A DNA stretch of 35,675 bases from Bryobacteraceae bacterium (GTDB taxonomy: Bacteria; Acidobacteriota; Terriglobia; Bryobacterales; Bryobacteraceae), in NCBI GenBank assembly GCA_025980435.1, contig JAICXK010000019.1:1-35675 (forward strand), given 5' to 3'. Position 1 is the stretch's first letter, and the number at the start of each line of letters is the position of its first letter. The position numbers and the translations under genes are program-made. Under the pieces are notes generated by a model that was not told the origin of the DNA, ran no database searches, and was given only the letters and a program-made list of their open reading frames with translations. Shown one piece after another: positions 3,577 through 25,801 of the stretch.

Positions 3577-5691
3577 CTAAAATCCCAGCAGGCGTTCGCC
3601 TTCGCGCACGATGTCCCCGACCTGGGGAAGAATCTCATCTTCCAATTGAGGATTGTAGGCCACCCAGGTATCCAGGGCCGCAACGCGCCCGACCGGTGCA
3701 TCCAATTCCGTAAAAAGCTCGCTGGAAATGCGCGCCGCGATCTCCCCTCCGTAGCCCCACGACAAGGTATCCTCATGCGCAATCAGCACCCGGCTGGTCT
3801 TGCGCACAGAGGACCGAATCGTTTCCCAATCGTAGGGAGAGAGGGTACGCAGATCGATTACTTCCACGGAGACACCGTGCCTGTGCTGTTCCAGTTGCAA
3901 GGCCGCCTGCAGCGACTTCTGCACGAGCGCGCCGTAAGTGATGATCGTCAGATTGTGCCCAAGCTTCACGGTTCTTGCCTTGCCAAAAGGGATGGTGAAA
4001 TCGGGACCGGGGTAAGGCGAGCGATTGTACGGCTCGCGGTAGAGCTTCTTGTGTTCGAGAAAGAGGACCGGGTCATCGCAGCGGATCGCGGTCCGCAGCA
4101 AACCGCATGCGTCGAGCGCATTCGATGGAAATACCACCCGCAAACCTGGCATGTGTGTAAAGATCACTTCGCCGCATTGGCTGTGGTAAATCGCTCCTCC
4201 TGTCAGATAACCGCCAATAGGGACGCGAATTACCATCGGGCTGGAGAAGCCGTTGTTGGATCTCCAGCGAAATGTGGCCAACTCATTACGTATCTGCATC
4301 GTAGCCGGCCAGATGTAATCGAAAAATTGAATTTCCGGAACAGGCTTTAGCCCGCGTACCGCGAGACCGATCGCGCGTCCGACGATACCCGCTTCCCCAA
4401 TCGGAGTATTAAAGCAACGCTGGCTTCCGAATTCGCGCTGCAGACGGTTGGTCGCCTTGAACACTCCCCCCTTCCCTTTCACCTCCGGCAAATATTGCTC
4501 GCGGCTGCAATCAGCGACATCTTCCCCAAACACAATCACTCGACTATCGCGGCGCATCTCATCGAATAGCGTTTGATTGATGGAATCCACCATGGTTCGC
4601 GGCTCGCCGCTTAGCTTCGGTTCGGCGCTAAAGGCATCCGACGTTGGATCGAGGTCGCTTGAGTAGAGATGAACAAATATAGAATCACGCGCGGGACCGG
4701 GTTCGTGCAGAACCCGCTGTGAGATTTCGGCGACTTCGTGATCGATCTCGCGCATAATGCGATCGATTCCGCCGCGGTCAAGAAGCCCTTCGCGAAGCAG
4801 CAAGTCAGGAAATGTCTTCAACGGGTCTCGCGCCGCTTCCTGATCACGCTCGATGCGGGGCTTATAGAGCCGCTCATCATCTGAAAGCGAATGCGAATAC
4901 GGGCGAATGACGGAAGCATGCACTAACGCGGGTCCATGGCCTGCGCGGCAATATGCAGACGCGTGTTTCAGAGCATGAAACGAATCGATGAAGTTTGTTC
5001 CATCCACCTCGATCCGCAACAGCCCGGGAAAGCCTTCCAGAAGACGTGAGATGCTTCCGCCGGCGGTTTGCTTCTCAACCGGAACCGAAATAGCGTATCC
5101 GTTGTCTTCAACCAGCGCAAGCAGGGGGAGCCCCTCCAGGCAAGCGATGTTCATGCATTCCCAAAACTCGCCTTCGCTTGTTGCGCCTTCCCCGGAGCAC
5201 ACCAGAGTGATCTCGTCCGAATCCGGATTGATGAAGCGTTTGCCTTCGGCGCAGCCGGCGGCATGCAGATATTGCGAACCCGTTGGCGAAGAGCCCGTCA
5301 GAACGTGCAGGGATGGCGAAGACCAGTGAGAGGGCATCTGCCTTCCGCCCGAACTCGGATCGCGGGCCGCGCCGACAGCCTGCAGCAGCATGTCCTCGGC
5401 GGTCATTCCCAAAGTGAGCATCAGGGCGCGGTCTCGATAGTAGGGCGCAATCCAGTCAAACCCGGGCTTCAGCACCATTCCAGCGGCAATTTGGACGGCT
5501 TCATGTCCAGCGCCGCTGATCTGAAAAAAAATCCTGTTCTGCCGCTTCAGCATGACCTCGCGGTCATCCAGACAGCGCGACAGGTACATGATCCGGAAGG
5601 TCCGGATCAGCGCCTCACGATCCAGTTCGACTGGAACAGAAGCGCCGCCGGACATCAGGTGTTGGGACACATGACTTTGGGACGTCACCAC
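3577..5691 (-). CDS. Branched-chain 2-oxoacid dehydrogenase E1, alpha and beta fused
   Basis: This 704-residue protein joins both E1 subunits of a 2-oxoacid dehydrogenase complex, most like the branched-chain (2-oxoisovalerate) type. It uses thiamine diphosphate to decarboxylate the keto acids of Val, Leu and Ile and acylate the E2 lipoyl domain. The alpha half (about 25-345) has YYRD (84-87) and a thiamine-diphosphate site beginning GEGATSEG (167-174) and ending DNGYA near 196. The beta half (about 365-704) has FGEDVA (388-393) and TPIGEAGI. E2 and E3 are not in the window. The start at 5691 is GTG followed by a second GTG with no clear Shine-Dalgarno; ATG at 5655 (Met13) is an alternative. 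A pyruvate or acetoin dehydrogenase role is less likely but not excluded. Confidence 0.9.
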
Positions 5692-5796: not shown

Positions 5797-6924
5797 ATGG
5801 CGAGCGCAGGGGCAGGTCTCGAGAACGTTGTTGCGACATCGTCCCAAATCTGTTTCATCGACGGCGACAGAGGCATACTCAGCTACTTCGGATACAACAT
5901 CAACACACTGGCCGAAAATGCCACGTTTGAAGAAGTTATCTATCTCCTCTGGAATGGAAAGCTGCCGAATCGGAGCGAACTCGAAGGGCTGAAGCGTTCG
6001 CTGACGGCGGAGCGCGAACTGCCGAAGGAGGTCACATCTTTTTTGGGAGCCGTTCCGAAGGGAAGCCTTCCCATGGATGTGCTGCGCACGGCGGTTTCCA
6101 TGCTCAGCTTGTATGACCCGGAGGCGGCCGATAATTCTCAGGAAGCGAACAGCAGGAAAGCCATAAAGCTGATGGCCCGCGTTCCTACAATCGTTACCAG
6201 CTTCGACCGGCTTCGAAACGGGAAAGAGCTGATATCGGGCGACCCGAACCTGGGATACGCAGCCAATTTTCTGTACACGTTGAGCGGGAAAAAGCCGGAC
6301 GACCTCATGGAGCGCGTTTTTGACGTTGCGCTAATCCTGCACGCCGATCATGAATTGAACGCGTCAACCTTTGCCGGCCGGGTGACCGCTGCCACGTTGT
6401 CCGATATCTACTCCGCGGTGACATCCGCTATTGGCGCACTGAAAGGCCCACTGCACGGCGGCGCGAATGAGGCTGTCATCCAGATGCTGCTCTCCACAAA
6501 GTCTCCCGAGGACGCGGTAGCGAGAGTGAAAAGCGATCTGAACAAAAAGGTGAAAATTCCGGGCTTTGGCCACCGCGTATATCACGTGCTCGACCCTCGG
6601 GCCATTCATCTGAAAAAGATGAGCGCGGAACTTGGGAAACGAACCGGGCACACGGAGCTATATGAGAAATCCGCGCGCGTCGAGCAGACGGTTCACGATC
6701 TTAAGAATTTGAACGCGAATGTCGACTTCTACTCCGCTTCGACCTACTATTCGCTCGGTATTCCCGTCGACCTGTTCACGCCTATTTTTGCGGTGAGCAG
6801 GATGTCGGGCTGGACGGCGCACATTCTGGAGCAGTACCGCAATAACCGCTTGATCCGGCCCAGAGCCGAGTACACCGGCGCTCCTAACGGCCAGCCCTGG
6901 ATACCTATCGAGCAGCGTTCGTAG
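5797..6924 (+). CDS. gltA: Citrate synthase family protein
   Basis: A 375-residue cytoplasmic enzyme that condenses oxaloacetate with acetyl-CoA to form citrate. The catalytic set is visible: His220 in LHGGANE, His259 in GFGHRVY and Asp310 in VDFYSAS, with a further conserved His in LHADHELNAS (182-185). The length fits the short, non-allosteric form found in Bacillus and archaea rather than the longer E. coli hexameric type. That short subgroup also contains 2-methylcitrate synthases, so propionyl-CoA is a possible alternative substrate. No neighbouring PrpB or PrpD supports methylcitrate use. A purine-rich GGGAGAGA lies upstream of the ATG. serS follows 51 bases later on the same strand. 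Confidence 0.9.
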   Translation: MASAGAGLENVVATSSQICFIDGDRGILSYFGYNINTLAENATFEEVIYLLWNGKLPNRSELEGLKRSLTAERELPKEVTSFLGAVPKGSLPMDVLRTAVSMLSLYDPEAADNSQEANSRKAIKLMARVPTIVTSFDRLRNGKELISGDPNLGYAANFLYTLSGKKPDDLMERVFDVALILHADHELNASTFAGRVTAATLSDIYSAVTSAIGALKGPLHGGANEAVIQMLLSTKSPEDAVARVKSDLNKKVKIPGFGHRVYHVLDPRAIHLKKMSAELGKRTGHTELYEKSARVEQTVHDLKNLNANVDFYSASTYYSLGIPVDLFTPIFAVSRMSGWTAHILEQYRNNRLIRPRAEYTGAPNGQPWIPIEQRS

Positions 6925-8778: not shown

Positions 8779-9011
8779 GGGAATACTCTTCCGTCTGAAG
8801 AAACGATTTGAGCCGCACCCGGGGGTTAGATCTTGCGAGCGAGAATTTGGTCGTAAACGTTCGGTGAAGATTTCGTGCCGGAACGGGTTGGCTGGACTCG
8901 ACTCGGCCTCAACCTTTCGATGGAGTTCGAAACCGATCTTTCGCCTGAAGACGAAGCGGCTTTGAACTGTTACGGTATAGCTAATCCCTTTAAACGCACT
9001 CTGGTGTGTTC

Positions 9012-9125: not shown

Positions 9126-10718
9126 ATGAAGACCACCGAAGGTCCGTTTACGACCATCAGCGGAATACCGGTCGAGCCTCTATACGGTCCGGAGAACCTG
9201 AAGCATTTCGATCCCGGCCGCGAACTGGGCAACCCAGGGCAATATCCTTACACGCGCGGAATTCACCGCGACATGTATCGAGGCAGACTGTGGACAATGC
9301 GGCAGTTTTCCGGCTTCGCCACGCCGGAAGAAACGAACCGCCGTTACCGGTACCTATTAGAACAAGGACAAACGGGCCTTTCGGTCGCGTTTGATCTGCC
9401 GACCCTGATGGGCTACGATGCCGATCACTCGATGAGCCAGGGCGAGGTGGGCAAGTGCGGAGTGTCCATCTCTTCGCTGGAGGATATGGAGATCCTGTTC
9501 CGCGGCATCCCGCTTGGTGAGGTGACGGTCTCCATGACAATTAACTCGCCGGCGGCCGTGTTGTGGGCTATGTATCTTGCTGTCGCCGAGCAACAAGGCG
9601 TGGAATGGAAGCGTATTTCGGGCACGCTTCAGAATGACATTCTCAAGGAGTACATCGCTCAGAAGGAGTACATTTTTCCACCGCGCCCATCCATGCGGCT
9701 GGTGACCGATACCATTGAGTTCGGTTCGCGCTACACGCCGCGATTTAATCCCATTTCGATCAGCGGATACCATATCCGCGAGGCTGGATCGACGGCCCCG
9801 CAGGAACTCGCGTTCACCCTACGCGATGGCATCGAGTACGTCGAATGGGCGTTGCGGCGCGGTCTGGAGATCGACGATTTCGCCGGGCGGCTGAGCTTCT
9901 TTTTCAATGCTCATAACGATTTCTTCGAAGAGATTGCGAAATACCGGGCGGCGCGCAAGATCTGGGCACACGTGATGCGCGACCGGTATGGCGCCAAGGT
10001 CGAGCGCAACTGGAAGCTTCGTTTCCACGCCCAGACCGCGGGATGTTCGCTCACCTGGCAGCAGCCGTACAACAACGTTATGAGAACGGCGTGGCAGGCC
10101 ATGGCTGCTGTTTTAGGCGGCGCGCAATCCCTGCATACGAATTCGCTCGACGAAGCCTATGCCCTACCCAGCGAGCACGCCGTGACGCTTGCCCTGCGGA
10201 CACAGCAGATTCTGGCATATGAGACCGGAATAGTGAATACTCCAGACCCGCTAGGAGGTTCCTATTTCGTCGAGAGTCTCACGCTGCAAATGGAATCGGC
10301 CGCCAACGAGTATATTGAGCGGATCGACAAAATCGGCGGCATGATCGCCTCTATTGAATCCGGATTCCCCCAGCAGGAGATTGCGGCCGCCAGTTACCGG
10401 TACCAGCGCGAGATCGAACAAGGGGAGCGCGTCATCGTCGGCGCCAACCGGTTTCAATCGGACCAGGAACCAATTGACTTGCTGCAGGTCGATGAGGCGG
10501 CGGAAGACCACCAGGCAGCAAAGCTCGCTGCCTTACGCAAACGCCGTAGTAACGCGGGCGTCGAGCAATCGCTGGATGCCCTTCGCCGCGCGGCCGAAGG
10601 GACCGGGAATACCATGCCGCTCATCCTCGATGCGGTCCGTGCCTACGCGACCGTGGGAGAAATCTGCGATGCCCTGCGCCACGTATTTGGCACATACAGC
10701 GAAACTACCCGGGTTTGA
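9126..10718 (+). CDS. B12-dependent acyl-CoA mutase, large (substrate) subunit; isobutyryl-CoA mutase-like
   Basis: A 530-residue TIM-barrel subunit of the methylmalonyl-CoA mutase family without the C-terminal cobalamin domain, so it must pair with a separate B12-binding subunit not in this window. Family motifs are clear: [38 protein letters not shown] and HTNSLDEA. His216 aligns with catalytic His244 of the Propionibacterium mutase. The two residues that hold the methylmalonyl carboxylate, Tyr89 and Arg207, are here Phe61 and Gln179, at exactly the same spacing of 118. Phe/Gln is the pair known from isobutyryl-CoA mutase. The open frame extends upstream to 9006, but the family N-terminus starts at the ATG at 9126. 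Automated naming as methylmalonyl-CoA mutase would probably mislead. Confidence 0.9.
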
Positions 10719-10754: not shown

Positions 10755-11057
10755 ATGAGAAATACTTCCAAAAACGGCGTTGTCGGGGCGGTTCTCATCG
10801 GTGTCGGATGCGGCTTGACGGTTGCCGGTTTGGTACTGGTGATCCCGGCGTGCGCGAACTGGTCGTTAAGCCTGACTGAGCAGGCATGGCGAAGAGGTCG
10901 CGAAAGTGTGGAGAACGCCGCAGCATCCCTGGGGGAGTTTGCGGGACGCACGCAGCAACGATTCGAAGACGCCGCAAAGACGGCAAAGTCCACCACATCG
11001 AAAGCCGCCGGGGCGGTAGAAACAGCGGCGCGCCACGTCCGCGAATATACTTCCTGA
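10755..11057 (+). CDS. Small membrane-anchored protein with helical tail, unknown function
   Basis: A 100-residue protein with no recognised family. Residues about 9-35 are one strongly hydrophobic segment containing a Gly-rich stretch (VGAVLIGVGCGLTVAGLVLV). The remainder is charged and Ala-rich with a helical pattern (ENAAASLGEFAGRTQQRFED and on), resembling apolipoprotein-like or YtxH-like stress proteins. An AAGGAGG sits upstream of the ATG with a spacer of about 13 bases. The gene is 36 bases after the mutase gene and 21 bases before the TPR gene on the same strand, so co-transcription is likely. The YtxH-like reading is a guess from composition. Confidence 0.6.
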   Translation: MRNTSKNGVVGAVLIGVGCGLTVAGLVLVIPACANWSLSLTEQAWRRGRESVENAAASLGEFAGRTQQRFEDAAKTAKSTTSKAAGAVETAARHVREYTS

Positions 11058-11078: not shown

Positions 11079-11396
11079 ATGGCAACCAATCGCCTGGACA
11101 TTCTCAAACAGATGGTAGACAGCGACCCGAGCAACGCATTCGCGCGTTATGGTCTGGCGATGGAGCACGCCAACCGCGGCGAATTGGAGCAGGCTACCGC
11201 CGAGTTTCGCTCGCTCATCCAGCAGGATGACAGCTATGCTGCCGCTTACTATCACGGCGGCCAGGTGTTAGCGAAACTCGGCCGCATCGAGGAAGCCCGG
11301 GATATGTATGAAAAGGGTATCGAAGCCAGTACCCGTAAGGGCGACCTGCATACACGTAGCGAGATTGAGGCGGCGTTGAGCCTGCTGCCGGCCTAA
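11079..11396 (+). CDS. Small tetratricopeptide-repeat protein
   Basis: A 105-residue soluble protein made almost wholly of TPR helices. Two repeats are readable: about residues 18-48 (ARYGLAMEHANRGELEQATA) and about 50-84 (AAAYYHGGQVLAKLGRIEEA), with the usual small and aromatic positions and a closing helix rich in Ala and Leu. TPR proteins act as protein-protein adaptors; the partner is unknown. It is the last gene of the mutase run on the plus strand. Its TAA stop overlaps the TAG stop of the convergent HTTM gene, so the two transcripts have complementary 3' ends. Confidence 0.75.
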   Translation: MATNRLDILKQMVDSDPSNAFARYGLAMEHANRGELEQATAEFRSLIQQDDSYAAAYYHGGQVLAKLGRIEEARDMYEKGIEASTRKGDLHTRSEIEAALSLLPA

Positions 11397-17909: not shown

Positions 17910-18584
17910 ATGACGAGTGTTCGGAGAAGCTATCTTCCAGCCGCTGGGAAGGACTGGCTACTGCCGCTTTACGATCCGCTCGTGAAGCTAATCGGCGGCG
18001 ACCGAATACGGAAGGTACTTCTCGATCAGGCGGATCTGCGGCCTCACGACCGTGTTCTCGATGTCGGTTGTGGGACTGGGACACTCGGCTTGCTCATCAA
18101 GCGCCTTTACCCCGGCGTCGAGGCCGTCGGACTCGATCCCGACCCGAAGGCGCTCACCCGAGCAAGGCGTAAGGCGCGAAAAGCAGCAGTAGCTATCCAG
18201 TTCGACCAGGGCTTTTCAGATGACCTGCCATATCACGATTCGTCCTTCGACCGGGTCTTTTCTTCTTTCATGTTCCACCATCTTGCGCCGGAAGAAAAAG
18301 AGAAGACGATGCGCGAGGTCCAGCGCGTCCTGAAACCCGGCGGGACGTTACATCTGGTGGATTTCACGGAATCTGAATCCGACGTTCGCGGCTCCCTTGT
18401 CCGCGTGCCGCATTCAAGCGAGCGCATGAAAGATAACTCAGAAGAACGGATCCTCATCCTGCTCAGACAAGCCGGATTTTTGCGCGCCTCGAGACTGACA
18501 GGCGGGGCAATGCTCTTCGGACAACTTCAGGTCAGCTACTTTCAGGCTTCTGTAAACACCGGGCAGGCGGAAGGAGATCAGTAA
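17910..18584 (+). CDS. Class I SAM-dependent methyltransferase (UbiE/methyltransferase 11 type)
   Basis: A 224-residue soluble enzyme. The SAM-binding motif I, VLDVGCGTGTLG, lies at 49-60, the acidic motif II residue is in AVGLDPDP (73-80), and motif III with RVFSSFMFHHL and LKPGGTLHLVDF completes the Rossmann core. The substrate is unknown; sequences of this type methylate lipids, quinones or small metabolites. An AAAGGA precedes the ATG. The gene converges on kdpC and the two coding regions overlap by seven bases at their 3' ends. Confidence 0.87.
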   Translation: MTSVRRSYLPAAGKDWLLPLYDPLVKLIGGDRIRKVLLDQADLRPHDRVLDVGCGTGTLGLLIKRLYPGVEAVGLDPDPKALTRARRKARKAAVAIQFDQGFSDDLPYHDSSFDRVFSSFMFHHLAPEEKEKTMREVQRVLKPGGTLHLVDFTESESDVRGSLVRVPHSSERMKDNSEERILILLRQAGFLRASRLTGGAMLFGQLQVSYFQASVNTGQAEGDQ

Positions 18585-19159
18585 GCCGGGTAAAGCCGAT
18601 CCAAAGCCAGATTGAGCTTCAGCACATTGATCGCCGGTTCGCCGAGGAAACCAAGTCCGCGTCCATTGGTATTCTGCGATACAAGCGCCAGGATCCGATC
18701 GCGCGAGACCTTCCGAATCCGCGCGACGCGAGCAGCTTGAGCCTTGGCGTTTGCCACGCTTATGTCGGGATCCAAGCCACTGCCGGAAGCACTCAAAGCA
18801 TCCGCCGGAATGGAACCACGGTAGGCTGGGTTTTCGCTGCGAAACTGATCCGCAGCCGCCTTTGTGCGATCGAAGAGCTTGCGGCTTGTTGGGCCAAGGT
18901 TCGATCCGCCTGATGCCGACGCATCGTACCCGTAAATCCCCGCAGCGGACGGGCGCGGATGAAAGTACTTCGGCATCGTGAAATTCTGTCCGATCAGCGC
19001 GGAACCGATCACGCGGCCTCCGTTAGCGATCAGGCTTCCGTTGGCTTGATCGTGAAACAGGAGCTGGCACAGGCCTGTGACTGCGATCGGATAGATCAGC
19101 CCGGTCAAGACTGTCAGGAACAATGTCATTCGAAATGCGGGTCCAAGATGCTTGAGCAT
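18578..19159 (-). CDS. kdpC: Potassium-transporting ATPase subunit C
   Basis: A 193-residue periplasmic, single-span subunit of the KdpFABC potassium pump. The N-terminal membrane segment (about 10-32, FRMTLFLTVLTGLIYPIAVTG) is followed by the family signatures GSALIGQNF, FHPRPSA and SGSGLDPDIS. KdpC stabilises the complex and is proposed to help couple ATP use to ion binding. The ATG at 19159 matches the family start; an open frame continues upstream to 19252 inside kdpB but is not needed. The gene begins 13 bases after the kdpB stop and is the last gene of the kdp structural run. Confidence 0.97.
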   Translation of the reverse strand: MLKHLGPAFRMTLFLTVLTGLIYPIAVTGLCQLLFHDQANGSLIANGGRVIGSALIGQNFTMPKYFHPRPSAAGIYGYDASASGGSNLGPTSRKLFDRTKAAADQFRSENPAYRGSIPADALSASGSGLDPDISVANAKAQAARVARIRKVSRDRILALVSQNTNGRGLGFLGEPAINVLKLNLALDRLYPAY

Positions 19160-19172
19160 AAGCTTCCTTGTT

Positions 19173-21284
19173 TCACGCCAGGTGCAGCAGTACCAGAAGC
19201 TGATCAATCGCCCAAATTCCGGGGAACGGGACGAGAATGCCGCCGATGCCATAGATCAAAATATTGCGCCGGAGTAATGAAGCAGCGCCGATGGGCCGGT
19301 ACTTCACTCCGCGCAAAGCGAGGGGCACAAGCGCGATGATGATCAACGCATTGAAGATGACGGCGGCAAGCACCGCGCTTTGAGGAGTGTGCAGGCCCAT
19401 GATGTTGAATTTCGCCAGAGCCGGATAGGTCGCCATGAACATAGCCGGAATAATGGCGAAGTATTTTGCCACGTCATTCGCGATGGAAAACGTAGTCAAC
19501 GCGCCCCGCGTAATCAGCAGTTGTTTACCGATCGCCACAATTTCAATGAGCTTGGTGGGATTGCTGTCAAGGTCCACCATATTTCCGGCTTCCTTCGCCG
19601 CCATCGTTCCCGTATTCATGGCAAGACCTACGTCAGCCTGTGCCAGAGCCGGTGCGTCGTTTGTGCCGTCGCCTGTCATTGCAACCAGCCGCCCTTCGGC
19701 CTGTTCGCGCTTGATGTATGCGAGCTTGTCGGCGGGTGTCGCCTGAGCCAGAAAATCATCGACTCCGGCTTCCGAGGCAATTGCGGCAGCCGTGAGGGGG
19801 TTATCGCCTGTGACCATCACCGAGCGAATGCCCATGGCCCGGAGTTGCGCAATACGGTCCTTCATCCCGCCCTTGACGATATCTTTGAGATAAATAAGCC
19901 CGAGTAGCTGCGGCCCGTCCGCAACCCCCAGGGGCGTACCACCCAAGCGCGAGATGCGGTCCGACCATTCTGCGAACTCCTTCGGGACGAATCCCCCGAG
20001 CCTCCGAACGAAGTGTTCAAGCGCTTGTGTAGCGCCCTTACGGAGCTGGCGATCGCCGATATTCACACCGCTCATCCTGGTGTACGCCGAAAATGGTATG
20101 AATTGCGCTTCACGGTCGCCGATCTCGCGGCCACGCAGGCCGTGCTTCTCTTTCGCGAGTATCACGATCGACCGGCCTTCCGGTGTCTCATCCGCAAGGC
20201 TGGATAACTGCGCTGCATCGGCCAGTTCCCGTTCCTCCACGCCGGGAAGCGCGATAAACTCGACGGCCTGACGATTGCCCAGAGTAATTGTGCCCGTTTT
20301 ATCGAGCAAAAGCGTGTCGATGTCGCCCGATGCTTCGACTGCTTTGCCGCTCATCGCAAGGACGTTGTCCTGCATGACCCGATCCATTCCTGCGATGCCA
20401 ATCGCGGACAGCAGCCCTCCGATGGTCGTGGGAATGAGGCAGACGAGCAGTGAAACTAATACCGCGATCGCCGGAATCGATCCGGATCCTGCTGAAACAA
20501 CGGCGTAGGTCGCGAAAGGATCAAGGGTGGCAACCGCCAGCAGAAAGATGAGAGTCAGGCCCGCAATCAAAATGTTCAATGCGGTCTCATTGGGTGTCTT
20601 CTGCCGCTCCGCTCCTTCAACCAGTGCGATCATGCGATCAAGAAACGTCTCGCCCGGGTTTGAGGTAATGCGAATCCGAATCTGATCGGATAGGACCTTG
20701 GTTCCCCCTGTAACTGCGCTCCTGTCACCGCCGGACTCCCGGATGACTGGCGCACTTTCTCCCGTAATGACCGATTCGTCTATGGTCGCGATGCCGTCGA
20801 TTACTTCTCCATCGCCCGGTATCAAGTCGCCCGCTTCCGCGATAACGACATCTCCCGAACGGAGCTGCGCCGCCGGCAATAGATCGACGCTCCCATCGCC
20901 AAAGATGCGTTTTGCGATCACATCCCTTTTTGTTTTACGAAGCGTGTCGGCCTGGGCCTTGCCGCGCGCTTCGGCCATGGCCTCCGCAAAATTTGCAAAC
21001 AGAACCGTAAACCAGAGCCATAACGAAACCTGGAAACTAAAACCAATTTGCCCATTGCCGGCAATCGCGTCCCGCATGAGAAAGGTTGTTACGAGAAAGG
21101 CCCCGGCCTCGACGACGAACATCACCGGGTTCTTAATGAGCGTCCTGGGATTCAGCTTGACAAACGACTCCGCGATCGCCCGACGGATGATTTCCCAATC
21201 AAAGAGCGGTCTCGAACGACGGGGATTGGAGGGCAGCAGGGATTGTTGCTGAACGGGAATAGGAATTTGGGTGGTTGCCGCCAT
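19173..21284 (-). CDS. kdpB: Potassium-transporting P-type ATPase, catalytic subunit B
   Basis: A 703-residue P-type ATPase that hydrolyses ATP to drive K+ uptake through KdpA. The phosphorylated Asp328 is in [10 protein letters not shown], the actuator loop is SVITGES with Ser177 at the site matching the inhibitory phosphoserine of the E. coli enzyme, and the hinge is [18 protein letters not shown]. The N-terminal membrane segments and the Arg/Gln/Pro-rich cytoplasmic start are normal. It lies 11 bases after kdpA and 13 bases before kdpC, in the order A-B-C on the minus strand. Confidence 0.98.
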
Positions 21285-21295
21285 AATCGGAGCCT

Positions 21296-23116
21296 CTAGA
21301 AAGAAAAGAGCGCTAGCGAGAACAGCCTCCCCTGGTACATGAGAAAGTGTTCGACAATCGGCCCCAACGCCAGAGCGGGAAAGAAGGTGAGCGCGCCGAC
21401 CAGGATCACGGTGCCCACAACAAGCCCCACAAACATCGGACCATTCGTAGGCAGTGTTCCGGCTGATGGCGGAATCCTTTTCTTCTTCACCAAGCTGCCG
21501 GATACCGCAAGTAAGGGAATCACGAACAGAAAGCGGCCGATCAGCATCGCTAATCCGATGGTCAGGTCGTACCAGGGAGTATTCGCTGTTATACCGGCGA
21601 ACGCACTGCCGTTGTTGCCGGTCCCGCTGCTGTACGCGTACAGCATTTCGCTGAAACCGTGTGCTCCTGAATCGGCCACATTTGACGCGGCAGCTCCCGG
21701 CGGATTCCAGTAGCTGTGCACGGCAGGCTGTCCCTTCGCATCTTTAGTAGGTGGTGCAAATTTAATCACGGACGAGATTGCCGAGAACACGAGGATGCTG
21801 AAAGCCGTCGAGATGAGCGCAAGCATTGCCATCTTGACTTCCTTCTGCTCGATTTTCTTGCCGATATATTCCGGTGTCCGCCCGACCATCAGGCCCGCTA
21901 TGAAGACCGCCAGAACGGCATAGAGGAGAATACCGTACAGGCCGGCGCCGGCGCCCCCGAAAATGACTTCGCCGGTCTGAATGTTGAACAGCGGCACTAA
22001 CCCGCCGAGGGGTGTGTAGCTGTCATGCATGGAATTGACCGCGCCGCAACTGGCGTCCGTGGTGACCGTCGCAAAGAGGGTGGAAGCGGCGATACCGAAT
22101 CTCGTCTCCTTGCCTTCCATGTTGCCGCCGGGTTGGCCGGGCGTTGCGGCTGCTTCGATGCCAAATCTGGAAAGGAGCGGGTTCCCCTTTTGCTCGGCCC
22201 AGTAGCAGGTGAAGGCTCCAGCTAAAAACATGGCGCTGCAAGCCCCGAAGATCGCCCAGCCCTGCCGCCGATCCCCTATCATCACCCCGAACGTGTAGGT
22301 CAGCCCTGCCGGAATGAGGAAGATGAGAATCAACTGAACAAAGTTTGTGATGGGACTCGGGTTCTCAAATGGATGAGCGGAATTTGCGTTAAAAAACCCC
22401 CCGCCGTTTGTACCTAACATCTTGATGGCCTCCTGCGATGCCACAGGGCCCTGCGCGATCACCTGCCCCGCTCCTTCGAGCGTTTTTACGTGAGTATAGG
22501 AATTGAAGTTCTGAATCACTCCTTGGGAGCAAAAGAACAGTGCGGCGATAACAGCAATGGGAAGCAAGATATAGATCGTCGCTCGGGTCAGGTCCACCCA
22601 AAAATTGCCGATCGTGTTGGCCCGCTCGCGAGAAAACCCACGCACCAGGGCAATGGCCGCCGCAATACCGACAGCAGCGGATGCAAAGTTTTGAACGGTC
22701 AGCGCGGACATCTGCACGAAGTAACTTAGCGTCGATTCGCCGCTGTAAGCCTGCCAGTTTGTGTTTGTTACAAAGCTAACGGCCGTGTTGAAGGCAAGGT
22801 CCGGTGGAACATTGGATGCACTGAAGCCCTGCGGGTTTAAAGGCAGGAAGCCCTGTAGCCTTTGCAAAACATAGATCACCACGAAACTCGCTACGCTGAA
22901 CGCAATCAGCGCGAATGTGTACTGGGTCCACCGCTGTTCAACTTGCTCCTGAACGCCGCATATTCGATAGGTGAACGTTTCGACTCGCCGTAGAATCGGG
23001 TGAAGAAACGTGCGTTTTCCGTCGAAGAGCTTTGCCATAAACAGTCCCGTGGGCCTGGTCAGCAGCAGGATGATTGCAAAGTAGGCAAGTATTTGAAGTA
23101 CGCCGTTCGGTGTCAT
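21296..23116 (-). CDS. kdpA: Potassium-transporting ATPase, K+-channel subunit A
   Basis: A 606-residue integral membrane protein of the SKT superfamily that forms the K+-selective pore of KdpFABC. The four pore loops are recognisable, including [10 protein letters not shown] and [18 protein letters not shown], with further Gly-rich filter segments ([14 protein letters not shown] and GTGNNGSAF). About ten membrane segments are readable. It is preceded by kdpF, whose stop lies 15 bases upstream of its ATG. Size and motifs are typical. Confidence 0.98.
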
Positions 23117-23131
23117 AGAACCGCCTCTTCG

Positions 23132-23215
23132 TCAGAACTTCTCCGGTTTGAGAAGCGCGTAAATCAAATATCCGAACAGAAATAGCGCTGCGATTCCACC
23201 GATGATGTAGTCCAT
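23132..23215 (-). CDS. kdpF: Potassium-transporting ATPase subunit F (27 residues)
   Basis: A very small open frame between the upstream microprotein and kdpA. It encodes 27 residues beginning MDYIIGGIAALFLFGYLIYA and ending in a short Lys/Glu tail, which is the characteristic KdpF layout: one membrane helix with a Tyr/Leu-rich C-terminal part and a positively charged end. KdpF is a small stabilising subunit of the pump. A good AGAGGAG lies upstream of the ATG. The gene is in the expected place directly ahead of kdpA on the same strand. Confidence 0.9.
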   Translation of the reverse strand: MDYIIGGIAALFLFGYLIYALLKPEKF

Positions 23216-23225
23216 GTTGGCTCCT

Positions 23226-23309
23226 CTAAAGGCGGTTGCAGACCTTTGTAAATGCCCAACAGCCGATAAAGAAGATGAGTCCAACCGCTACGTAAAAAAT
23301 GTCAAGCAC
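23226..23309 (-). CDS. 27-residue membrane microprotein upstream of kdpF
   Basis: A GTG-started open frame of 27 codons, ending 10 bases before the kdpF ATG. It encodes a single hydrophobic helix (LDIFYVAVGLIFFIGCWAF) followed by a short basic end with Lys, Cys, Asn and Arg. Small proteins of this general pattern (acidic residue near the start, aromatic helix, Cys near the end) are recalled upstream of kdpF/kdpA in other genomes, usually unannotated. No clear Shine-Dalgarno precedes the GTG; TTG two codons later in another frame does not help. The size and position suggest a second small Kdp subunit or a leader peptide. Function is inferred from location only. Confidence 0.5.
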   Translation of the reverse strand: MLDIFYVAVGLIFFIGCWAFTKVCNRL

Positions 23310-23398
23310 TATCTAGAGAGTAAAGACAAAGCCATAAAAAAGGCATAAGAAGTCCGTAAGGATTCTCTAAATGTCGAGCGGCTTTTGACGTGAGCGTG
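23310..23398 (-). promoter_or_regulatory. AT-rich leader of the kdp structural genes
   Basis: These 89 bases between the kdpE hairpin and the first kdp structural frame are more AT-rich than the surroundings. On the minus strand they carry a run of seven T inside TGCCTTTTTTTATGGC and a later TCTTTAC. T-rich tracts are part of the KdpE-binding site in E. coli, so this is the likely KdpE target and promoter. No confident -35/-10 pair was identified. Confidence 0.35.
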
Positions 23399-23426
23399 CG
23401 ATCACGCGCTCTATTCGGCGTGATCG
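23399..23426 (-). terminator. Perfect 9-bp hairpin at the end of kdpE
   Basis: CGATCACGC and GCGTGATCG form a perfect 9-bp stem around a 10-base loop, overlapping the last four codons and the TAG of kdpE. No T-tract follows on the minus strand, so it would be a weak intrinsic terminator or an mRNA stabiliser. It separates the regulator genes from the pump genes. Confidence 0.5.
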
Positions 23427-24106
23427 GGAATTCGAAATCGGTAGCCATGCCACGGTTCGGTCAGAATGTACTTTGGCTTAGACGGATTCGGCTCGATCTT
23501 CTTGCGCAACTGGTTCACGAAAACGCGGAGATATTCTACTTCGTTGCCATAATCAGGCCCCCAGACGGCCTGGAGTAAGCGGCCGTGGGACAACGGTGTG
23601 TTCGCATTCGAGAGGAAATACTGCAGCAGATCGAACTGCTTTGGGGTCAATCGAATCTGGGTTCCCTGCACGACCACGCATCTTGCGCCGAGATCGATCT
23701 CAAAATCGGGAAGTTTGAGAATAGCCGTCGAACTCTCAGCTGCGCCTGGCACGCGACGGAGGGCGGCCCGAATCCTTGCTAGCAGCTCCGGCATACTGAA
23801 GGGCTTTGTCACATAGTCATCAGCTCCCGCATCGAGAGCGGCGACTTTATCGCGTTCAGTGTTCCGCACGGTCAGCATGATGATGGCGATTTCTGAATTG
23901 GCTCTCATCAGCCGGCAGGCTTGCATACCTCCGATACCTGGCATATTCACGTCCAGCAGCACGAGATCAAATCGCCGCGCGCGCACGCGCTCAAGCGCCT
24001 CTTCTCCTGTACGCGCATCCGCGACCTCGAAGCCCTCGCTGGTCAGCGAAGTGCGCATAACACGGCGTATTTGCGGATCGTCGTCAACCACGAGAACGCG
24101 TTGCAT
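23411..24106 (-). CDS. kdpE: KdpE-type response regulator (OmpR/PhoB family)
   Basis: A 231-residue two-component transcription factor. The receiver domain (1 to about 118) has the acidic pocket Asp8-Asp9 and the phosphorylated Asp52 in LLDVNMPG, with Lys in VTKPF. The C-terminal winged helix (about 130-228) shows LTPKQFDLLQYFLSN and VNQLRKKIEPNPSKPKYILT followed by GYRF. This matches KdpE, which activates kdpFABC when K+ is low. It overlaps the end of the kinase gene by 23 bases and lies about 100 bases upstream of the kdp structural genes, all in one direction. Confidence 0.93.
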   Translation of the reverse strand: MQRVLVVDDDPQIRRVMRTSLTSEGFEVADARTGEEALERVRARRFDLVLLDVNMPGIGGMQACRLMRANSEIAIIMLTVRNTERDKVAALDAGADDYVTKPFSMPELLARIRAALRRVPGAAESSTAILKLPDFEIDLGARCVVVQGTQIRLTPKQFDLLQYFLSNANTPLSHGRLLQAVWGPDYGNEVEYLRVFVNQLRKKIEPNPSKPKYILTEPWHGYRFRIPDHAE

Positions 24107-25583
24107 CGCTATCTCTTGCGATTCCGGCGCCGGCAGGAATCGTCAGTACGAATGTGGTCCCCTCTCCACTTCTGCTTTCGAGCCGGATATCTCCCCCGTG
24201 CGCCCGTGCAATTTCCCTCGCGACCGTCAGGCCCATTCCGGTTCCGGGTACTTGGGTTTCCCCGAGACCGCGGTAGAACTTCTCGAAGAGGCGGCCCTGC
24301 TCAGCTTCAGGGATACCTGCCCCTTCGTCGTGCACACGAATCACAACATTCGTATCCTGTCGAGAAGCGCTTACTGTGATGGTACTCAAGGGAGGTGAAT
24401 ACTTGAGCGCATTATCGAGCAGCAGTTTCAGTGTTAGGCTGAGCAGATCGGCATCGGCCGCGACGGTAGGAAGATTAGCGCCGAACTGCACGCCCAGCAA
24501 CCGCCCATCCCGGCGCCGCTCGAGATCATGCACAGTCCGAAGCATCAACTCATCTATTTTGCACAGCCCCTTTTTAGGGCTGAGGGAGCCCGCCTCGATC
24601 CGTGCCATTTGAACCGCATCGGTTACGAGACCGGTGAGACGGTCTGCCTCCTCATCGATCACAGTAACAAGTTCACGCACGGATTGAAACTCTGTTCCGG
24701 CCGTTGTGGGCAGCAACGAAGGGGATAGCAAGGATGTGGCCGCAACTTTGATCGAGGTCAGTGGTGTTTTAAATTCGTGAGCAATGGCATCGAGGAGGGT
24801 TGATTTGAGACGTTCGCTTTTGCGTTCGGCCTCCGCTTGAGTTGTCTCCTCACGATGCCGCTCCCGTTCGAGTGTGATCGCGATCAGATTCAGGACTGCC
24901 TGCTGCGCTCCATCCGAAAGGAATAGCCCTTGTGTCGCGAGGCTTCCGATGAAGTCGGCGCCCAGGCGTATCGGGGCAATCGCCAGAGTTTCCTCCTCGT
25001 CAGTGACTGCGATACCGCTACTGGCGGCCTTCTGTAGGAGATTCGCCAGTGACTCGGAGATTTCAAGGCTACCGCCAATATGCAGTGCGGAGGAATAACG
25101 GTCGAAAATAACGGCGCCCTCCAGGTCAAAGAGCCGCACAATGTGTCTGGCAATCTGGCTGGCCGCATTGACGTGATCTTCCAACAGCAAAATGGTTCGG
25201 CTCAGGGCGTAGAGCTTTTCCGTTTCGCGCTTGCTACGCCAGCTTTCCCTAGCTTGCCTCCTTGCATACGAAGAGAGCTGGCTACCGACAATTGCGGTTG
25301 CCAGAAACGTGAAGAGCGATACCCAATTTTGAGGATCGGCTATCGTGAAGGTCAGTACTGGCGGTAGGAAAAAGAAGTTGAAGCAAAGGACGGCGGAAAG
25401 TGCGGCGGTAATGGACTCGAGCAAACCCCAGAAGGCCGCAATCAGCAAGACAGCGAGCAAAAAAAACATGGCCGCTGTAGTTGCGTTAACCTGCAGCAGT
25501 TCATAACAAATGAGCGTGACCGCGACGGCGGCTAGAGCGCTTCCAAGCAGTCGCGCAATTTTTAAAATCATCTTCCGCGCCAT
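24084..25583 (-). CDS. Short KdpD-like sensor histidine kinase lacking the KdpD N-terminal domains
   Basis: A 499-residue membrane kinase. Residues about 10-105 hold the four-helix DUF4118 membrane module (with FFFLPP and the DPQNWVSL loop), then a GAF-like domain (about 130-240), HisKA with His269 in AIAHEFKTPLTS, and a HATPase domain (DNALKYSPP, DEGAGIP, GTGMGLTVA). Full KdpD has about 400 further N-terminal residues (KdpD/ATP-binding and Usp domains); these are absent. The open frame extends upstream to 25718, but that part translates a tRNA-Gly fragment, so the ATG at 25583 with a GTGAGG site is chosen. It overlaps kdpE by 23 bases. Signalling to KdpE is inferred from this arrangement. 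Confidence 0.85.
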   Translation of the reverse strand: MARKMILKIARLLGSALAAVAVTLICYELLQVNATTAAMFFLLAVLLIAAFWGLLESITAALSAVLCFNFFFLPPVLTFTIADPQNWVSLFTFLATAIVGSQLSSYARRQARESWRSKRETEKLYALSRTILLLEDHVNAASQIARHIVRLFDLEGAVIFDRYSSALHIGGSLEISESLANLLQKAASSGIAVTDEEETLAIAPIRLGADFIGSLATQGLFLSDGAQQAVLNLIAITLERERHREETTQAEAERKSERLKSTLLDAIAHEFKTPLTSIKVAATSLLSPSLLPTTAGTEFQSVRELVTVIDEEADRLTGLVTDAVQMARIEAGSLSPKKGLCKIDELMLRTVHDLERRRDGRLLGVQFGANLPTVAADADLLSLTLKLLLDNALKYSPPLSTITVSASRQDTNVVIRVHDEGAGIPEAEQGRLFEKFYRGLGETQVPGTGMGLTVAREIARAHGGDIRLESRSGEGTTFVLTIPAGAGIARDSDATRSRG

Positions 25584-25644
25584 CGCATCGGCCTCACTGG
25601 CAGAATAATTGTGCGACTCAGCGTCTTCTAGGCAGTTGAAGGGA

Positions 25645-25690
25645 TGGAGCGCGAGATGAGAGTCGAACTCGCAACCAACAGCTTGGAAAA
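25645..25690 (-). pseudogene. 3' half of a tRNA-Gly(UCC) gene
   Basis: Read on the minus strand, these 46 bases match a glycine tRNA from the anticodon loop to CCA. The loop TTTCCAA carries the UCC anticodon, then the 3' anticodon strand GCTGT, a short variable loop, a T-arm with TTCGA, the 3' acceptor strand CTCGCGC, a T discriminator and CCA. Upstream of the loop the sequence no longer looks like a tRNA: no D-arm and no GCGCGAG 5' acceptor strand. The T-stem has one C-A mismatch, suggesting decay. Such half tRNAs are typical leftovers at attachment sites of integrated elements. Confidence 0.7.
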
Positions 25691-25801
25691 TTGTAGCTAA
25701 ATTGAAAACAAAGGACAACGGCGTTTAACGGGGCTATACCGCACTCCCTATTCACGTACTTTGTAGCAGTGTGTGTTGCTTGGGACACGAGCAAACGCAA
25801 A

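Follow-up and report, generated by a model that had tools for sequence, protein, structure and literature searches.

A probable isobutyryl-CoA mutase-type catalytic subunit and its separate candidate B12 carrier in a Bryobacteraceae genome

In methylmalonyl-CoA mutase (MCM), the carboxylate of the substrate is held by a Tyr/Arg pair. Two specificity sites in acyl-CoA mutases were highlighted by Jost et al. (2015), as related in an excerpt of PMC7238569 that uses Tyr/Arg to call an MCM and also mentions the isobutyryl-CoA mutase (ICM) of S. cinnamonensis. Related enzymes have been treated variously in the excerpts matched from other papers, with MCM, ICM and MeaA lumped as one group in PMC2667541, IcmF described as widely misannotated as MCM in PMC7764203, and isovaleryl- and pivalyl-CoA included among the substrates of IcmF in PMC10481361. 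The matched parts of PMC6759758 and PMC11599936 held nothing decisive on the enzyme considered here. None of the matches listed dealt with a Phe/Gln (F/Q) mutase in Acidobacteria or with a B12 subunit common to two mutases, and such literature may exist.

The gene described here lies in a window of 35,675 nucleotides, the whole stretch of DNA that was analysed, which is contig C389 of a Bryobacteraceae genome (G000) of 5.14 Mb in 416 contigs, 93.5% complete. Patterns of sequence, phylogeny and synteny suggest that its product is probably the catalytic subunit of an AdoCbl-dependent acyl-CoA mutase that is made of two parts and belongs to the isobutyryl-CoA mutase type. Classing by residue pair is already published, and the enzyme belongs to a known kind of mutase.

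Catalytic subunit, specificity residues and phylogeny

The gene occupies 9126..10718 on the + strand and codes for 530 aa when read from the ATG at 9126; upstream the open frame continues to a GTG at 9006, with the key residues unaffected. In Pfam the protein is PF01642 catalytic domain throughout (748 bits) and a B12-binding domain is absent. TIGR00641, "methylmalonyl-CoA mutase N-terminal domain", is the sole pass among four NCBIfam matches (753.3 bits vs a cut-off of 303.8), the equivalogs for MCM (636.7 vs 876 bits), IcmF (336.7 vs 1500 bits) and MutA (183.6 vs 617.25 bits) all being below theirs, so that the routine label would be "methylmalonyl-CoA mutase". Misassignment by routine annotation had been foreseen when the sequence was read by itself, and the TIGR00641 label is a case of it, of a sort already published for IcmF. 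The closest PDB sequence is 4R3U_A, from the 2-hydroxyisobutyryl-CoA mutase (HCM) subunit HcmA (540 bits), and roughly half of the residues are identical to the solved chains.

Residue correspondence was taken from phmmer comparisons with 1REQ, 2XIJ, 4R3U and 4XC6 and from a joint MAFFT alignment. Tyr89, Arg207 and His244 of P. shermanii MutB, in what we take to be its numbering (chain index + 1) and using a list of contact positions that we likewise assume, correspond in both to Phe61 (codon TTT, 9306..9308, + strand), Gln179 (CAG, 9660..9662, + strand) and His216 (CAT, 9771..9773, + strand), and the alignments confirm the spacings of 118 and 37 residues that the sequence-only reading had counted. 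Over 22 pocket and cofactor positions compared, the window protein is unlike MutB at 75, 89 and 207 only; position 75 is His in the window, Tyr in MCM and HCM, and Phe in IcmF. At window positions 47/61/88/179/216/257 the protein reads HFAQHS and HcmA reads YIDQHA, codon 88 (9387..9389, + strand) being Ala in the motif rows where HcmA has Asp; the Ile and Asp of HcmA at 61 and 88 are presumably its Ile90 and Asp117. IcmF of C. metallidurans (4XC6) has Phe and Gln at the specificity positions, chain residues 618 and 762 by hand count, which we take to be 598 and 742 in the published numbering. With Phe61 and Gln179 in place of the carboxylate-gripping Tyr/Arg, the pocket would be expected to take an uncharged acyl-CoA.

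The relatives considered are the best 80 of 213 confirmed loci from the genome_contigs scan, the nearest named ones being MAGs labelled Acidobacteriaceae, Terriglobia, Bryobacterales and Candidatus Solibacter, and identity to relatives in other genomes reaches 83%. At positions 61/88/179/216 these best 80 of 213 read F/A/Q/H in 77 and F/A/E/H in three (L052, L053 and L093), with Y/R in none, and homologues on Deinococcus and Haloterrigena plasmids are likewise F/Q. The genome itself holds two PF01642 proteins, the window mutase and a 499-aa protein on C242; the latter is Y/A/R/H, as are 20/20 fetched relatives of that paralogue. The window pair is not a matter of chance, being kept in relatives while the paralogue class has Y/R.

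Glu stands in place of Gln179 at L052:5980-7554 (GAG), L053:162-1718 (GAA) and L093:5953-7551 (GAG), and to our knowledge no described residue pair matches Glu at the Arg207 position of MCM. The L119 protein is the same as that of L052; the tree pairs L052 with L053 and sets L093 apart, the intervening branches being weak, and the B12 subunit is not adjacent to the mutase in any of the three. Two very divergent PF01642 relatives, L165 (G013:C206:1-3500) and L166 (G023:C5:706500-710500), match no known pair at the key positions in what is a rough alignment, and L165 additionally has B12-subunit-like and MeaB-like frames.

Phylogenetic placement was by a maximum-likelihood tree of 71 rows with the columns of residues 61, 88, 179 and 257 removed. 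Of the 78 rows in a first tree, seven were dropped (long branches L165, L166 and L156; duplicates L119 and L095; IcmF rows L157 and L148), the rows are without Streptomyces IcmA, and the root was set on IcmF via a very long branch. All 33/33 Y/R rows, human MUT and P. shermanii MutB among them, formed one clade (100/98 bootstrap/SH-aLRT) that excludes the window mutase, which falls instead within a clade of 30 F/Q and F/E rows drawn almost wholly from Acidobacteriota (93/84, narrowly short of the support that the tool stars). A place among proven MCM together with an alternative Arg, which the sequence-only reading held would count against it, is thus not what was found, no replacement Arg being present at the 22 compared positions. 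HcmA joined haloarchaeal F/Q enzymes (98/89) and not the window clade, IcmF was far outside on a long branch, and the deep F/Q branching order was poorly supported (83/65). IcmA was also sought in two Streptomyces plasmid records, and a stand-alone F/Q mutase was not seen among the rows read from them.

B12-binding partner, neighbouring genes and substrate

Among nine PF02310 matches in the genome, one is a short stand-alone frame, of 133 aa at G000:C363, with a DGHDRG motif and best PDB matches to 2YXB and 4R3U_C (the HcmA small subunit). A cobalamin-binding small subunit elsewhere in the genome, as anticipated beforehand, was thus located. The gene order on C363 is NYN, B12, adenosyltransferase (ATR), with the mutase missing. 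Within the best 80 of 213 relatives a B12-subunit frame occurs in the mutase locus in 61, mostly directly behind the mutase, and in three of the 19 others the locus stops <500 bases from the mutase; an NYN-domain-like gene comes next in 21/80 and an ATR gene stands divergent in front in 4/80, with L045 and L051 showing the full order ATR, mutase, B12, NYN. Given the C363 layout and this synteny, the usual partner very probably has its orthologue in the C363 protein, with the mutase lying elsewhere in the lineage of the window.

At the usual place of the B12 subunit the window has a 100-aa ORF with no Pfam match (10755..11057, + strand), followed by a 105-aa TPR protein (11079..11396, + strand), and the same arrangement of mutase, similar frame and TPR gene is found in L014, L015, L017 and L036. 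The NYN-domain-like gene adjoins the B12 subunit even away from a window-type mutase (e.g. L012:4468-5817; L180-L185), a link for which we know of no reason. On a plasmid of Deinococcus sp. KNUC1210 (NZ_CP092189.1) a B12-subunit frame at L124:7466-7831 lies between meaB and an F/Q mutase, and the PLSDB gene table, which is incomplete, shows no gene at the place of this frame.

There is one MeaB in the genome, on C346, between an acyl-CoA-dehydrogenase-like gene and a methylmalonyl-CoA epimerase, and the same triplet is present in G006. From these components we infer a complex in which the window protein would supply the substrate-binding barrel alone and the 133-aa protein would carry the cobalamin, with the ATR beside the C363 subunit gene and the MeaB at C346 loading and guarding the cofactor. 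The most likely reaction would be the interconversion of isobutyryl-CoA, derived from valine, and n-butyryl-CoA.

A role in branched-chain acyl-CoA breakdown fits the mutase, and the data point to no specific isobutyryl-CoA role. In six of the 80 relatives (L063, L066, L067, L075, L080 and L086) carboxyltransferase- and HMG-CoA-lyase-like frames come after the mutase and its B12 subunit, an enoyl-CoA-hydratase-like frame also being present in five of these six; neighbour families were named from NCBIfam for L080, L085 and L086 only and all matches are below curated cut-offs, so that to speak of a "leucine cluster" is a guess. The acyl group of leucine is isovaleryl-CoA, and it is possible, if unlikely, that the window mutase serves another neutral acyl-CoA such as isovaleryl/pivaloyl-CoA, 2-methylbutyryl-CoA or a hydroxyacyl-CoA. 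This would be consistent with IcmF, which has the same pair and also uses isovaleryl- and pivalyl-CoA (excerpt of PMC10481361), and with a 2-hydroxyisobutyryl-CoA mutase as the closest solved sequence. The computed data do not separate isobutyryl- from isovaleryl-CoA, but the residues of HCM are absent, with Phe for Ile, Ala for Asp and Ser for Ala, and HcmA sits with the haloarchaeal enzymes, away from the window clade.

A valine shunt would have gained support from a negative link to methylmalonate-semialdehyde dehydrogenase, through which valine carbon can otherwise pass. No such complementary pattern was found in the family genomes scanned below, where this dehydrogenase is over cut-off in 29/38 with the window-type mutase and 11/23 without, and so is commoner, not rarer, alongside it. 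In the window's own genome none is over cut-off (best 279.4 vs 448.5 bits, in an assembly 93.5% complete), and G045, a neighbour of the same genus, has one.

The window also encodes, at 3577-5691, a 704-aa fusion of 2-oxoacid dehydrogenase E1 alpha and beta, and a citrate synthase gene at 5797-6924 that runs divergently from it. This fused E1 was considered as a branched-chain link and dropped, its nearest NCBIfam family being pyruvate dehydrogenase E1, below cut-off, and E1-like frames occurring next to the mutase in 1/80 relatives (L059). A single minus-strand cluster at 18578-25718 comprises KdpC, a P-type ATPase at the place of KdpB, KdpA, a response regulator and a DUF4118-containing histidine kinase.

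Two mutases and one carrier in the family

Mutase, B12 subunit and epimerase were sought in 61 genomes of the family, each at least 85% complete. By identity bands entered by hand, the window-type mutase (63-83%) occurs in 38/61 genomes, a Y-type stand-alone mutase (57-61%) in 30/61 and a full-length MCM (47-49%) in 21/61, with residues read in 30/38 (29 F/Q, 1 F/E), 21/30 and 4/21 genomes, respectively. A strong stand-alone B12 subunit is present in 41/61, one per genome; the 61 genomes share ancestry, so these counts are not independent, and gaps in MAGs limit them too. Some matches are incomplete: the window-type mutase is a fragment in G042 and G056, the Y-type mutase is split in two in G027, and G054 has a B12 subunit cut to 61 residues. 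An over-cut-off epimerase accompanies the Y-type mutase in 28/30 genomes, the exceptions being G018 and G015, where a lower-scoring epimerase is found in the latter; G001 and G003 have an over-cut-off epimerase without a Y-type mutase. The lower-scoring epimerase accompanies full-length MCM in 20/21 genomes, and of the 49 genomes holding a Y-type mutase or a full-length MCM, 2 have both.

These counts bear on whether the window enzyme could itself be an MCM, as its sole NCBIfam pass would have it, holding the carboxylate by other residues. In G001 and G003 the window-type mutase is the only PF01642 protein found, yet methylmalonyl-CoA epimerase is over cut-off; either these assemblies have failed to capture an MCM or the window-type enzyme serves as one. 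An epimerase of either kind is present in 36/38 genomes with the window-type mutase vs 13/23 without, an excess that co-occurring MCM genes may explain but that would also agree with a link to methylmalonyl metabolism. G044, which has the window-type mutase only, has no over-cut-off epimerase. Such an MCM nevertheless appears quite improbable. First is the loss of Tyr89 and Arg207 with no new Arg at the compared positions, and the position outside the Y/R clade. Secondly, the genome has a Y/R enzyme of its own, of the class that tracks the over-cut-off epimerase, and an MCM of Y-type or full-length build accompanies the window-type mutase in 35/38 genomes, so that the window-type is not needed as MCM there. 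The MCM label was rejected on residues, clade and the separate Y/R paralogue, and the earlier claim of a neutral substrate, probably isobutyryl/butyryl-CoA, is strengthened by that paralogue and the epimerase. A non-functional leftover, parted from its small subunit, could account for the B12 subunit not being adjacent to the mutase, but is very improbable and was rejected given the full-length open frame, the catalytic positions kept, the identity of up to 83% to relatives in other genomes and the intact B12 subunit frame elsewhere.

The B12 subunit is present in 41/45 genomes that carry either stand-alone mutase (window-type or Y-type) and in 0/16 that carry neither. Where the two stand-alone mutases occur and full-length MCM is absent, 20/21 genomes have a single B12 subunit (truncated in G054), most simply read as one carrier used by both barrels. 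The remaining genome, G042 (89% complete), has no B12 subunit. In G006, an assembly of 6.7 Mb in 2 contigs, both mutases are present and the one B12 subunit is directly behind the window-type gene. Where the Y-type mutase occurs alone, the B12 subunit is found in 4/7 genomes (none in G018, G036 and G041), and in three fetched of those four it still precedes the NYN gene. On balance, though with less assurance than for the type of the window enzyme, we favor the reading that one B12 subunit, one MeaB and one ATR would serve both the window F/Q mutase and a stand-alone Y/R MCM acting on a different substrate. As part of the same reading, and on the same genome counts, in many members of the family the stand-alone Y/R MCM would seem to take the place of the full-length one that is usual, and the B12 subunit would plausibly be one that several genomes keep without an F/Q mutase. 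If a shared carrier is true, this is a modular B12 enzyme in which the reaction is set by whichever barrel docks. For these soil Acidobacteria, a pathway reconstruction based on labels would count two MCMs in place of what is probably a single MCM plus an isobutyryl-CoA mutase, and the link from valine-derived isobutyryl-CoA to butyryl-CoA would be overlooked.

Comparison with known systems

MCM (1REQ, 2XIJ) shares the catalytic domain family with the window mutase, and His244 and 18 further compared positions of MutB are identical to it; Tyr89/Arg207 are absent, however, and the clade is separate. HcmA (4R3U) is alike in its two-subunit build, in Gln at the Arg207 position and as the best PDB match, but its Ile, Asp and Ala correspond to Phe, Ala and Ser in the window mutase, and identity as HCM was rejected on these residues. 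IcmF (4XC6) shares Phe and Gln with the window mutase at the two specificity positions; it differs in being a single chain of B12 domain, G-protein and mutase, whereas the window mutase is unfused with a long branch between them, and identity as IcmF was rejected for the lack of fusion. IcmF is over cut-off in 45/199 genomes, the window's own not among them. Also close in kind is Streptomyces IcmA/IcmB, which we take to have separate catalytic and B12 subunits and a Phe/Gln pair; the phylum differs, and the window enzyme has, in the manner of IcmA/IcmB, the Phe/Gln pair and a barrel without B12 domain alongside a separate predicted B12 partner.
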